This document shows positions 3,221-28,058 of a stretch of DNA of 38,129 bases, piece by piece (within the stretch, counting starts at the first letter, position 1; each line of letters starts with the position of its first letter). Both the position numbers and the translations under genes were made by a program. The DNA is from Microcaldota archaeon (GTDB lineage: Archaea; Micrarchaeota; Micrarchaeia; Micrarchaeales; CABMGC01). The stretch spans positions 1 through 38,129 of the forward strand of contig JAKATZ010000031.1 in assembly GCA_021827925.1 (NCBI GenBank), given 5' to 3'. The notes below the pieces were generated by a model. It did no database searches and was not told where the DNA came from. It worked only from the letters and a program-made list of their open reading frames with translations.

Positions 3221-3619
3221 CTACCCGAATATCATGCCTAAGCCCTGCTCGCTCTCTGATATCTCAGTCTCGATCTCGGCTATTACCTTCTCCTCATCCT
3301 CCTGCGGCGCCCTCGATATACCTTCGATGCTCTTCCTGAGCTTCGCATCAGCCTTCTCGAGAAAGGCGTCGTTTGCGTTTATGTAAAGATAGACCTTACC
3401 CCTGTCAAGCCCGGCAGCTATGCCGTCCCTAAGCTGGTAATCCTGCCGCGCGAAGATGACGTTTGCCTCTTCATCGCCCTTGAGCTTTGCAATCTGTTCC
3501 TCGTTAAGGCTCTTGTCAAGATAAGGATCGTACTCGAGAATGCGCTTCAGCTCTGCCGCATGGGACGAATCGCAGATGTAAACCCTTTGAGGTACGGAAT
3601 CACCCTGCAAGCCTTGCAT
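3221..3619 (-). CDS. Conserved hypothetical protein downstream of eS8
   Basis: I do not recognise a named family. The 132-residue soluble protein has a beta/alpha N-terminal half (RVYICDSS, then YDPYLDKSLNEEQIAKLKGD), a central FARQDYQLRDG, then KVYLYINANDAFLEKA, a charged helix rich in Glu, and a short hydrophobic tail ending GLGMIFG. Its ATG overlaps the end of the eS8 gene by 20 bases and the carbamoyltransferase starts 7 bases after its stop, so it is translated from the same message. Linkage to a ribosomal protein gene suggests a housekeeping role, but that is inference only. Confidence 0.75.
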   Translation of the reverse strand: MQGLQGDSVPQRVYICDSSHAAELKRILEYDPYLDKSLNEEQIAKLKGDEEANVIFARQDYQLRDGIAAGLDRGKVYLYINANDAFLEKADAKLRKSIEGISRAPQEDEEKVIAEIETEISESEQGLGMIFG

Positions 3620-5433: not shown

Positions 5434-5459
5434 TAAATCTAAGAGAAGATGACAGCTAA

Positions 5460-5468
5460 CTATTTAAG
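5460..5468. promoter_or_regulatory. Bidirectional TATA element ctatttaag
   Basis: This near-palindromic element reads CTATTTAAG on plus and CTTAAATAG on minus. Its centre (5464) is about 26 bases from position 5438, just before the PiT GTG on minus, and from 5490, just before ATG 5500 on plus. One element could therefore drive both genes. Confidence 0.55.
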
Positions 5469-5499
5469 CATGCTTTCCGCCATTCTTACCGGCAAGCTC

Positions 5500-6402
5500 A
5501 TGACAAAGGGATCCGCAGCCATTCGTAGGCGTGCACAGAGTGCAATGGAGTTCCTGACCACTTACGGCTGGGCGATACTCCTTATAGCTCTGGCTCTGAC
5601 AGGTATAGCCTACTACGCATCGATAAACTTCTGGCTGCTAGGTCCGCGTGCACTCCCAGGCTCGTGCTTAGTATCAAGGCCTGACGGCCCAGGAAGCCTG
5701 AACAATATAAACTTTCAGGGAGTGTGCAACGGCGATATACCCTCCCTGGTTCCTGTGTTCACCGGCAAGAACTACATAGAAACAACGCCTTACCTGTTCA
5801 ACCTCAACAACGCCCAGATCACCATCGAGGCGTGGTTCAACATGTACGGCGGCGGAGGCACTGTAAAAAAGAGCACAGGCGCAGAGTATCTAATATCAAC
5901 TCCGATACCAGGCAACGGCGCGTTCATATGGATCGATACAAATGGCTATGTTCATTTCGGATTCGATCAGAACGGCGAAGCTACTTCGGGCAACGCGATA
6001 ACTCCTGGAAAATGGTACCAGGTGGTGGTCACTTACGACGGATCCAATCTGTACATGTACCTGAATGGCCGGCAGGAGGCGTACTCTGAGGTGAACAGGA
6101 ACCTGCCTCCAATGAACTCACTATACATAGGAACATTCGGGAAGGTTGGCAGCGGGAGCATGCAGGGATACTTCAACGGCTCCATCTCAAACGTGCAGCT
6201 GTACAACGCTTCTCTTGGCTACAATGCAGTACAGCAGTCTTACAGGGAAGGAATCGGAGGGACGCCTGTAGACCTGCAGCATCTCGTGGTCTGGTATCCG
6301 CTCAACGGCAACCTCAACGATTACTCCGGTAACGGCAACAACGCAACCTCCGGATCCTTCTATTATACTAGCTCCTGGACCGGCGGGTATGCGGTTCCAT
6401 AA
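5500..6402 (+). CDS. Prepilin-signal LamG-like surface protein, copy A
   Basis: This is an exported, probably pilin-like surface protein. Basic residues (AIRRRA) precede QSAMEFLTTYGWAILLIAL, a class III signal in which an archaeal prepilin peptidase would cleave before Gln and leave the hydrophobic helix for assembly. A Cys-containing linker follows (PGSCLVSRPDGPG, then FQGVCNGDIP). A concanavalin/LamG-type beta sandwich then begins at ITIEAWFNMYGGG, with WYQVVVTYDGSNLYMYLNG and GSISNVQLYNASL. The end is a conserved WYPLNGNLNDYSGNGN motif. Length is 300 residues. ATG 5500 is chosen because of the TATA element at 5460-5468; ATG 5449 and 5470 are in frame but lie at or before that element. It is a paralogue of the next gene. 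Confidence 0.82.
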   Translation: MTKGSAAIRRRAQSAMEFLTTYGWAILLIALALTGIAYYASINFWLLGPRALPGSCLVSRPDGPGSLNNINFQGVCNGDIPSLVPVFTGKNYIETTPYLFNLNNAQITIEAWFNMYGGGGTVKKSTGAEYLISTPIPGNGAFIWIDTNGYVHFGFDQNGEATSGNAITPGKWYQVVVTYDGSNLYMYLNGRQEAYSEVNRNLPPMNSLYIGTFGKVGSGSMQGYFNGSISNVQLYNASLGYNAVQQSYREGIGGTPVDLQHLVVWYPLNGNLNDYSGNGNNATSGSFYYTSSWTGGYAVP

Positions 6403-6403
6403 A

Positions 6404-6413
6404 CTTTTTAAAG
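6404..6413 (+). promoter_or_regulatory. TATA box of LamG prepilin copy B
   Basis: The element ctttttaaag is centred at about 6408, immediately after the stop of copy A. The predicted transcript start near 6434 meets ATG 6436, implying that each copy has its own promoter. Confidence 0.6.
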
Positions 6414-6435
6414 GTTGCTGCATACTCTGATAAGC

Positions 6436-7365
6436 ATGCACCGTATCTTCATCAAGGGAAAAATGCGCCTGCAGTCGGCGATGGAGTACCTCCTGACCTA
6501 CGGCTGGGCCATACTCGTCGTATCCGTGGTATTGGGTGCGTTGTTCTCCCTCGGGGTTTTCAACCCGAACACGTTTTCACCCCGTGCGCATGCAGGATCA
6601 TGCCAGGTCTACAGGCCTTTCGGGCCAGGCACCTCTGTCGATATCAACCTGCAGGGGGTGTGCACGGACGAGCTTCCATTGTTCGTTGCGCATTTCAACG
6701 GCAACAGCGGCTACGTCAGCGTACCTTCCTCGCCATCTTTATCTCCTGCGTCGTTCGCGATAAACGCATGGATAAGGTGGGACGGCGCACGCTATTCCTC
6801 CTCATCAGCAGAGGACTGGGCAGCGATAATATCAAAAGGATACTACGACAGCGGAACCTACGCTGTGCTGCTCCACAGGGCGGCAGGAGCCACTGACACA
6901 ACGGTAAACCTGTACATCAACGATCAGTTGGCCGATTCGTGGGTAAATTCCGTCCTTGATACAAACTGGCACATGCTTACTGTAACGTATGACGGAAGCA
7001 CCGCCAGCATATATCTTGACGGAGCAAACGAATCACACTCAGGCTTCATTCTGATGCAGGCATCGCCTCCGCAGCAGGTAGCGCCAGGCCCATACCCTCT
7101 CGCGATAGGCAGCCAGGCGTACGGATCATCGTACTTCTGGGGAGGCGAGATCTCAAACGTGCAGCTGTACAACGCTACGATGGACCCTGAAACGATCAAT
7201 TCCCTATACTCCGAAGGGATAGGTGGTGTGCCAATTCTCCTGCAGAATCTCGTAGGATGGTGGCCCCTCAACGGTGACACAATGGATTATTCTGGAAATG
7301 GGAACACCGGCGCCGCATCAAACCTGCTGTACACAAGCTCCTGGACCAGCGGCTACTCTGGCTAG
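6436..7365 (+). CDS. Prepilin-signal LamG-like surface protein, copy B
   Basis: This paralogue of the preceding gene has the same layout. A short basic leader (MHRIFIKGKMRL) precedes QSAMEYLLTYGWAILVVSVV, the archaeal class III prepilin signal. Two cysteines follow in AGSCQVYRPFGPG and LQGVCTDELP. The LamG-like sandwich has FAINAWIRWDGARY, WHMLTVTYDGSTASIYLDG and GGEISNVQLYNATM, and the closing motif is WWPLNGDTMDYSGNGN with TSSWTSGY. Length is 309 residues. ATG 6436 is supported by the TATA box at 6404-6413; an upstream TTG at 6415 falls inside the promoter. LamG folds often bind glycans, so cell-surface adhesion is a reasonable inference but not shown. Confidence 0.82.
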   Translation: MHRIFIKGKMRLQSAMEYLLTYGWAILVVSVVLGALFSLGVFNPNTFSPRAHAGSCQVYRPFGPGTSVDINLQGVCTDELPLFVAHFNGNSGYVSVPSSPSLSPASFAINAWIRWDGARYSSSSAEDWAAIISKGYYDSGTYAVLLHRAAGATDTTVNLYINDQLADSWVNSVLDTNWHMLTVTYDGSTASIYLDGANESHSGFILMQASPPQQVAPGPYPLAIGSQAYGSSYFWGGEISNVQLYNATMDPETINSLYSEGIGGVPILLQNLVGWWPLNGDTMDYSGNGNTGAASNLLYTSSWTSGYSG

Positions 7366-26167: not shown

Positions 26168-26176
26168 AATATAAAG
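26168..26176 (+). promoter_or_regulatory. TATA box of mosaic prepilin copy A
   Basis: aatataaag is centred at 26172 and predicts a start at about 26198, five bases before ATG 26203. Confidence 0.55.
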
Positions 26177-26202: not shown

Positions 26203-27489
26203 ATGATATCGCAGTCCGCAATAGAGCTCATGTCGACCTACTCCTGGGCTCTCCTGATAACGGCGATATTCCTCGCTACAGTGACAACGATCGTGTACAC
26301 CAAAGGCTCGGTGTACAGTACGCCATCAAGCTGCTACATAAGCCCTTCATTCCCGTGCTACGAGGCTGTAACATCCGCTGCCGGTTCACTGGGGTCTGGT
26401 TCTAACATTGTGATCAAGTTCTCAAACAACCTGGGCACAACGATAAACTTCCCCGTCAATTCATTTCACGTGCTGCCGACATACGCGAATACAATCTACG
26501 ACGGCGAGTGCTTTCCATCCAACGCAATCACCGGCAGCATAGTGACATGCAATGCAATAATTCCCGGTTTCAATCCAACCCTTGGGTCACAGCTCTCGCC
26601 GAAATTCTACGTCAGCTATAAGATCTGCAATGGCAACTGCGTGCAGTTGCAACTGTTGCCTCTTTATAACACCACTGGCTATGCTACCTCATACGCATCT
26701 CCTTCCTCGATAAGCTCAACCAGTACCTCAACGATCAGCATTCCTACGACGAGCTCTACGAGTACATCTACAATAAGCACGTCAAGCACTTCCACGTCAA
26801 CTTCGACAAGCACCTCGACGTCAGCAAGCTCTACCTCTACTTCCTCATCAACAAGCACGCTCTCCACCACATCAAGCTCGACAAGCACCTCGACATCGAC
26901 TTCAACAACCACAATAACCTACACTGTATACTCGCAGACAGCCACGGTCCCTACGCTGAGCACCAATTCTGTATTCAATTATCCAGTAAGCACATCTGGA
27001 TCTTTTGTGGTGATCTCAATCTCAGAGGCAGGCGATCATATGTCAATAATCCCTCCATCCGGATGCACAACTCTACAGACAGGAGGCGGATACCAGCTTG
27101 CGTACATTGGCGTATGTCCTTCGCAGAGTTCAGGAACACAGTCTGTAGCCGTAGATACAACAAGTTCCGGCTACGGCACGGCATATCTTTCCGAATCAGC
27201 CTACATATTTCCTCCAGGATCATATTCCTATGCAAATCCGGGCACAAGCCTTGGCACCTGCACTGCGAGCACGTTGAGCATGTCCATACCGACAAGTCAG
27301 GTGTACCTCTGCAATGCAGGCAATGATGCGTCCCCTCCTTGGACTGTCAGCGGGACCATCGATGAATCAACATCCGCCGCGAGCTTTTATTATGCTGCCA
27401 ACTGGCACCAGACATCGTCTGCCACGTGCACCACAACCGCGTCCTCTCCCTGCCTGCAGATAGGCGGCGTCGGGATTACGGCGACATAG
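26203..27489 (+). CDS. Prepilin-like surface protein with Ser/Thr linker, mosaic copy A
   Basis: The N-terminus MISQSAIELMSTYSWALLI is a class III prepilin-like helix, but unlike copy B it has no Lys or Arg before the Gln. A Cys-rich globular part follows (SSCYISPSFPCYE, ANTIYDGECFPSNAITGS, IVTCNAIIPGFNP, KICNGNC). A low-complexity linker of about 75 residues, nearly all Ser and Thr, spans roughly residues 168-245. A C-terminal beta-rich domain has further cysteines (PPSGCTTLQTGGG, GVCPSQSSG, LGTCTASTL). Length is 428 residues. Its first 417 bases match the next gene almost exactly outside one short cassette. The Ser/Thr linker may be O-glycosylated. An in-frame TAA upstream rules out a longer start. 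Confidence 0.83.
   Translation: MISQSAIELMSTYSWALLITAIFLATVTTIVYTKGSVYSTPSSCYISPSFPCYEAVTSAAGSLGSGSNIVIKFSNNLGTTINFPVNSFHVLPTYANTIYDGECFPSNAITGSIVTCNAIIPGFNPTLGSQLSPKFYVSYKICNGNCVQLQLLPLYNTTGYATSYASPSSISSTSTSTISIPTTSSTSTSTISTSSTSTSTSTSTSTSASSTSTSSSTSTLSTTSSSTSTSTSTSTTTITYTVYSQTATVPTLSTNSVFNYPVSTSGSFVVISISEAGDHMSIIPPSGCTTLQTGGGYQLAYIGVCPSQSSGTQSVAVDTTSSGYGTAYLSESAYIFPPGSYSYANPGTSLGTCTASTLSMSIPTSQVYLCNAGNDASPPWTVSGTIDESTSAASFYYAANWHQTSSATCTTTASSPCLQIGGVGITAT
26211..26364 (+). repeat. Duplicated block 1 (copy A), matches 27566-27719
   Basis: This is a 154-base direct repeat with two mismatches to 27566-27719 (c/t in the codon for Leu/Phe, and one silent t/c). It encodes the prepilin helix and the first Cys-containing part. 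Confidence 0.93.
26422..26619 (+). repeat. Duplicated block 2 (copy A), matches 27768-27965
   Basis: This is a 198-base direct repeat with five mismatches to 27768-27965, one of them amino-acid changing (Val/Phe). Between blocks 1 and 2 the copies carry unrelated cassettes of 57 bases (26365-26421) and 48 bases (27720-27767). Confidence 0.93.
26704..26922 (+). repeat. Ser/Thr codon low-complexity tract
   Basis: This is a run of Ser and Thr codons (tcn, agc/agt, acn) inside mosaic prepilin copy A, built from short imperfect units such as agcacctcgac and acgtcaagc. Because synonymous codons are mixed, it is not a pure DNA microsatellite, so the protein composition appears selected. A long opposite-strand open frame across it is a shadow. 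Confidence 0.8.
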
Positions 27490-27520
27490 GTCCAAAGTCC
27501 CCTGTCCTTCCTCCAAAAAG

Positions 27521-27530
27521 CATTATATAG
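27521..27530 (+). promoter_or_regulatory. TATA box of mosaic prepilin copy B
   Basis: cattatatag is centred at about 27526, 26 bases before ATG 27552, predicting a leaderless transcript. Confidence 0.65.
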
Positions 27531-27551
27531 CTTCACAGAGTCTCATATCGC

Positions 27552-28058
27552 ATGAAAGGCCGTTCGCAGTCCGCAATAGAGTTCATGTCGACCTACTCCT
27601 GGGCTCTCCTGATAACGGCGATATTCCTCGCCACAGTGACAACGATCGTGTACACCAAAGGCTCGGTGTACAGTACGCCATCAAGCTGCTACATAAGCCC
27701 TTCATTCCCGTGCTACGAGATGCTTATACTGGTGGGGAATACCGGATCCAACGTGGTGGTGGCCTTTTCAAACAACCTGGGCACAACGATAAACTTCCCC
27801 GTCAATTCATTTCACGTGCTGCCGACATACGCGAATACAATCTACGACGGCGAGTGCTTTCCCTCCAATGCAATCACCGGCAGCATAGTGACATGCAATG
27901 CAATAATTCCCGGTTTCAATCCAACCCTCGGGTCACAGCTATCGCCGAAATTCTACTTCAGCTATGCGATATGCTCCCCGTCATGCGCAGCACAAAGTTC
28001 GTTTTCGCAATACAACACAACAGGCTTCGCAACCGCATACGCTTCTCCTGTAAAATAA
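27552..28058 (+). CDS. Prepilin-like surface protein, mosaic copy B
   Basis: This 168-residue tandem paralogue of the preceding gene has an intact class III signal: MKGRSQSAIEFMSTYSWALL with Lys and Arg before the Gln. The same Cys-containing globular part follows, but it ends soon after YASPVK where copy A continues into its Ser/Thr linker. DNA identity to copy A is about 98% over two blocks of 154 and 198 bases. Between them, copy A encodes AVTSAAGSLGSGSNIVIKF and this copy MLILVGNTGSNVVVAF. It has its own TATA box. Pilin or minor-pilin function is inferred from the signal only. Confidence 0.85.
   Translation: MKGRSQSAIEFMSTYSWALLITAIFLATVTTIVYTKGSVYSTPSSCYISPSFPCYEMLILVGNTGSNVVVAFSNNLGTTINFPVNSFHVLPTYANTIYDGECFPSNAITGSIVTCNAIIPGFNPTLGSQLSPKFYFSYAICSPSCAAQSSFSQYNTTGFATAYASPVK
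27566..27719 (+). repeat. Duplicated block 1 (copy B)
   Basis: This is the partner of 26211-26364, offset by 1355 bases, with two mismatches in 154. Confidence 0.93.
27768..27965 (+). repeat. Duplicated block 2 (copy B)
   Basis: This is the partner of 26422-26619, offset by 1346 bases, with five mismatches in 198. Confidence 0.93.

Follow-up and report, generated by a model that had tools for sequence, protein, structure and literature searches.

Archaeal type IV prepilins carry a class III signal peptide, in which a short leader is cut after Gly, Ala or Ser ahead of a hydrophobic helix that often has Glu at position +5. Cultivated DPANN archaea need contact with a host and, to our knowledge, little is known about how these organisms diversify their surface fibres. 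Two pilin systems come closest to the locus described here. In Haloferax volcanii, the adhesion pilins PilA1 to PilA6 have an almost completely conserved N-terminal H-domain, which is needed for assembly (PMC4371748). In Neisseria, silent pilS copies donate sequence to one expressed locus, pilE, at high frequency (PMC4877100). Multigene families commonly undergo concerted evolution by gene conversion, a general process (PMC8223754). In a literature search largely confined to papers outside subscription journals, we met no account of pilin gene conversion in DPANN archaea, Micrarchaeota included.

The window, that is, the whole stretch of 38,129 nucleotides analysed here, belongs to a 93% complete genome of 969 kb in 33 contigs. 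Between trm5b and nrdR it contains two adjoining prepilin genes, both complete ORFs; the genes, their parts and their TATA-like boxes given below all lie on the forward strand. Copy A (26203-27489, 428 amino acids) comprises a core that is 82% identical to that of B, a Ser/Thr-rich linker placed from the translation with approximate limits (26707-26919) and a second, display domain (26920-27486) that belongs to no Pfam family and has relatives in four other genomes, plus one further in its own genome. Copy B (27552-28058, 168 amino acids) is a short prepilin consisting of the core only; the ORFs thus bear out the first-pass annotation, according to which A runs on into a linker and a second domain where B ends. 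Each gene has its own start and a putative TATA-like box, at 26170-26176 for A and at 27522-27529 for B. A second tandem pair of prepilin genes lies at window positions 5449-7365, with a LamG-type domain (PF13385) in each member and divergence along the whole length.

By inspection, both starts have the class III layout, with the cleavage site placed between MIS and QSAIEL in A and between MKGRS and QSAIEF in B. The leader of A (26203-26211, Met-Ile-Ser) has no charged residue ahead of the predicted site, and to judge from its sequence its processing may be weak. In the structure models of both proteins one long N-terminal helix, spanning residues 3-35 in B, is followed by a β-sandwich (mean pLDDT about 90). 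Neither A nor B matches Pfam or NCBIfam, and PF04021 (Class_IIIsignal) matches 2 of 29 family members (best E 0.0011). No solved relative was found by sequence, and the structure search of solved folds gave no match below 0.001; the Methanospirillum hungatei archaellum (5tfy) came ninth, with E 5e-3, behind channel proteins of similar helix-plus-sandwich make-up. The same genome encodes both the assembly ATPase, of T2SSE type (PF00437, three places), and one A24 prepilin peptidase (PF01478, one place). A and B are likely to be type-IV-pilus-like subunits.

Close relatives were absent from GTDB contigs and IMG/VR when a single protein was the query; a six-sequence alignment brought up 24 GTDB loci, almost all of which bear the label Candidatus Micrarchaeota, and nothing in IMG/VR. 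Of the 79 genomes in the same taxonomic family, 65 carry members of the prepilin family (E<=1e-18). The shortest members consist of the core alone and the longest exceed 1,400 residues; their end domains vary, and a strongly Ser/Thr-rich stretch follows the core in 50 of the 125 collected sequences. In two members, L115 (G069) and L135 (G075), the Ser/Thr linker leads into a HINT/intein-like domain (PF07591; E 3e-6 in L115 and 2.5e-4 in L135, only the first reaching the cut-off), and from the sequence a HINT-bearing pilin with a self-cleaving end is possible.

The cores of A and B form a mosaic. Block 1, from the N-terminal helix to CYISPSFPCYE (26209-26364 in A, 27564-27719 in B), is 99% identical between the copies, and block 2 (26422-26619 in A, 27768-27965 in B) is 97.5% identical; both are read here as converted tracts. 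Base by base, 26211-26364 and 27566-27719 differ at 2 of 154 positions and the block 2 segments at 5 of 198, the counts already reported by the first-pass annotation. The blocks are separated, in frame as it had also noted, by "cassettes" of 57 bases in A (26365-26421, 19 amino acids, AVTSAAGSLGSGSNIVIKF) and 48 bases in B (27720-27767, 16 amino acids, MLILVGNTGSNVVVAF), where the copies agree in 42% of nucleotides and 31% of residues; none of the other pairs compared has so low a nucleotide value. Past block 2 the tails of the two cores (26614-26706 in A, 27960-28052 in B) are diverged and homologous, with 58% nucleotide identity over 31 codons. Blocks and cassette differ by nucleotide with a Fisher p of 4e-24. 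Since synonymous codons show the same contrast, matching in 106 of 111 cases in the blocks and in 12 of 21 in the cassette and tail (p = 1.5e-5), protein constraint cannot explain the contrast, nor can amino acid selection alone produce the mosaic. Five of the seven block differences are synonymous, which indicates that the present state of the pair is not fresh; the other two are replacements, L/F early in the helix and V/F where block 2 ends.

The cassettes had been described as unrelated. They are indeed strongly different, yet they occupy homologous positions: the segment aligns with 27 relatives (29 sequences in the alignment), in which its length is almost always 16 residues and an NNLG-type motif comes next. 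The B segment has this family-standard length and that of A three residues more. Both model as strand-loop-strand with mean pLDDT about 90, with strands at 52-59 and 67-74 in A and at 54-61 and 65-73 in B, the loop of A being three residues longer and less certain. The alignment and both models rule out unrelated sequences; the two cassettes are diverged versions of one family-wide β-hairpin. Of five segments of the core, this hairpin has the lowest mean pairwise identity (0.28), whereas its column entropy is unexceptional (window rank 36 of 153), and we do not regard it as an outstanding hypervariable region.

Taken together, hairpin and tail are 0.45 identical between A and B and up to 0.47 identical to those of other genera, while the blocks are 0.99 identical between A and B and at most 0.50 identical to those of other genera. 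The unconverted parts are thus no more alike within the pair than between genera, and their apparent age is roughly that of the genus split. We propose, with a probability of roughly 0.7, that A and B are old, diverged prepilin paralogues in which two gene conversion tracts halted at the hairpin. In this model, two diverged Micrarchaeota paralogues with class-III-type starts would have stood side by side, and homologous non-reciprocal recombination between them (ectopic gene conversion) would have overwritten two stretches, the first covering the N-terminal helix as far as the PC motif and the second the β-sandwich core from SNNLG to KFY. Conversion would have halted where the copies match poorly, in the hairpin and the tail, and there the old divergence would persist. 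We infer both the direction and the number of the conversion events.

The genomic surroundings bear on the age of the pair. The order L11-NusG-Trm5b-[one prepilin]-NrdR-RNase HII is kept in three other genera (L093, L094 and L098), and Trm5b adjoins a prepilin in seven more loci. Among the genomes compared, which include none of the same genus, the tandem pair is thus special to the lineage of the window, which a duplication within this lineage would explain no less well than old paralogy. After a recent tandem duplication, one copy could then have acquired its hairpin and its tail from outside, by recombination with an unsampled homologue (cassette import), a course that would agree with the hairpin transfer seen in another genome (G076, below). 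None of the seven block differences falls within about 90 bases of the hairpin (chance about 0.006); this hints weakly at a last exchange with its centre in the hairpin, it could mean that this exchange was recent, and it speaks for import and against conversion between old paralogues. However, upstream of the two genes nothing but the TATA-like box is shared, although the blocks are 98% alike, which disfavours a simple recent duplication. Import would also demand separate replacements of the leader and promoter region, of the hairpin and of the tail, leaving near-identical stretches between them, and the genome yielded no donor. We consider import unlikely; two conversion tracts between old neighbours, requiring the fewest events where import requires several, are the simplest reading.

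Conversion between paralogues recurs in related genomes. A tract test restricted to synonymous sites (p<0.01) detected within-genome pairs in seven genomes, that of the window included, versus 1 of 132 between-genome pairs, and segmentation of nucleotide identity gave a mosaic in 7 of 32 within-genome versus 2 of 63 between-genome pairs. A tract confined to block 1, the stretch up to the hairpin, was found in G007 and G079, and one confined to block 2, past the hairpin, in G075; in G076 the tract takes in the hairpin and a neighbouring stretch, so that the hairpin itself was transferred. The two-sided arrangement of near-identical flanks around a different hairpin occurs only in the genome of the window; a search for further mosaics in a second taxonomic family (f2) added few pairs, none of them two-sided. 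These tracts of within-genome identity include synonymous sites and end sharply, and the process itself is ordinary gene conversion. The first-pass annotation had doubted that drift after duplication could produce the pair and had suggested conversion of the flanks; both views are upheld by the synonymous contrast and by the separate occurrence of the component tracts in relatives.

A further explanation, that strain variants in a draft genome were joined into a false mosaic, finds some support in the 33-contig state of the assembly and in the frequency with which contigs of related genomes end inside a prepilin gene. Such ends fall within the core in G006 C4 (both ends), C17, C45 and C46, G032 C1 and C9, G031 C40, G037 C8 and G157 C3. 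The longest exact runs common to A and B, of 87 and 95 bases, are shorter than a usual 150-base read, unique sequence lies between the copies, the flanking genes keep their conserved order, and the same kind of mosaic appears in independent genomes; an artefact is therefore highly improbable. Assemblies seem to break at near-identical copies, and both copy numbers and mosaics in the family are probably undercounted. Two members at opposite ends of the 6.9-kb contig G006 C4 (L056 and L057) are 98% alike in protein, with some segments up to about 14% different in nucleotides. In L151 (G087), from about position 3590, there is a 95-residue fragment, possibly a partial copy, that nearly duplicates the CYITPELYC-hairpin region and has neither leader nor tail.

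Surface pilins of a probable ectosymbiont, encoded by mosaic genes with recurrent edges, might be expected to vary actively, with regular exchange of hairpins among loci or, on the pattern of pilE/pilS, out of silent copies. The first-pass annotation had indeed considered cassette replacement of the kind seen in antigenic or receptor variation, with donors elsewhere in the genome. In the 93% complete genome, each cassette was found only at its own locus (for B, the search used the first 30 of its 48 bases and allowed up to 3 mismatches), no silent copies were found, and the other prepilin-like matches were at most 43% identical over the matched part; donor cassettes elsewhere in the recovered part of this genome are accordingly rejected, although one may lie in the part that is missing. 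Both genes are complete, the blocks have accumulated their five synonymous differences, the column entropy of the hairpin is ordinary, and none of the between-genome pairs compared by segment combined near-identical flanks with a different hairpin. Active variation at this locus is thus very improbable.

Of the 11 tract edges, six come to within 4 residues of a hairpin border (binomial p about 8e-4, with windows chosen post hoc). A mechanical cause is likely, since the segment that varies most between copies is framed by conserved motifs and a recombination tract stops once similarity is lost; the low similarity of the hairpin may by itself set the edges. It is doubtful, though conceivable, that the hairpin between the PC and NNLG motifs of Micrarchaeota display pilins is a specificity module bounded by recombination, exchanged or spared when paralogues convert one another, through which these probable ectosymbionts would reshuffle fibre binding while the core stays assembly-competent. 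The common core suggests, by analogy with the Haloferax PilA proteins and their common H-domain (PMC4371748), that A and B could enter the same kind of filament, A bearing its extra domain on a Ser/Thr stalk. A common assembly-competent core would then be combined with a hairpin, a tail and, in A, a Ser/Thr-linked domain that differ in their contacts, probably with the host cell surface.

Many of these genomes encode the family, with its common pilin core, its frequent Ser/Thr linker and its interchangeable end domains; its paralogues recombine, and the tract edges recur. That edges return to the hairpin in one related genome after another offers a useful starting point for learning how such tiny symbionts come to vary the fibres on their surface. 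If the hairpin is a contact surface, it offers a defined segment of 16-19 residues for binding and assembly tests; if it is not, the locus is a clean example of conversion halting at a diverged segment.

With PilA1 to PilA6 of H. volcanii, here compared by their description, A and B share the condition of archaeal pilin paralogues with a conserved N-terminal part. The common part described in Haloferax is the H-domain, whereas in A and B identity also extends over most of the β-sandwich, broken by one hairpin, and the synonymous sites of A and B point to recombination rather than to constraint alone. Like pilE/pilS of Neisseria, the pair belongs to a family of type IV pilins in which some segments are conserved, others vary and genes convert one another; unlike that system, it consists of two complete genes whose converted blocks have accumulated synonymous differences, and no silent donors were found. 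As in concerted evolution (PMC8223754), paralogues of the same genome have been made alike in sharp-edged tracts. What sets the Micrarchaeota tracts apart from that general process is that their edges fall repeatedly at one β-hairpin.
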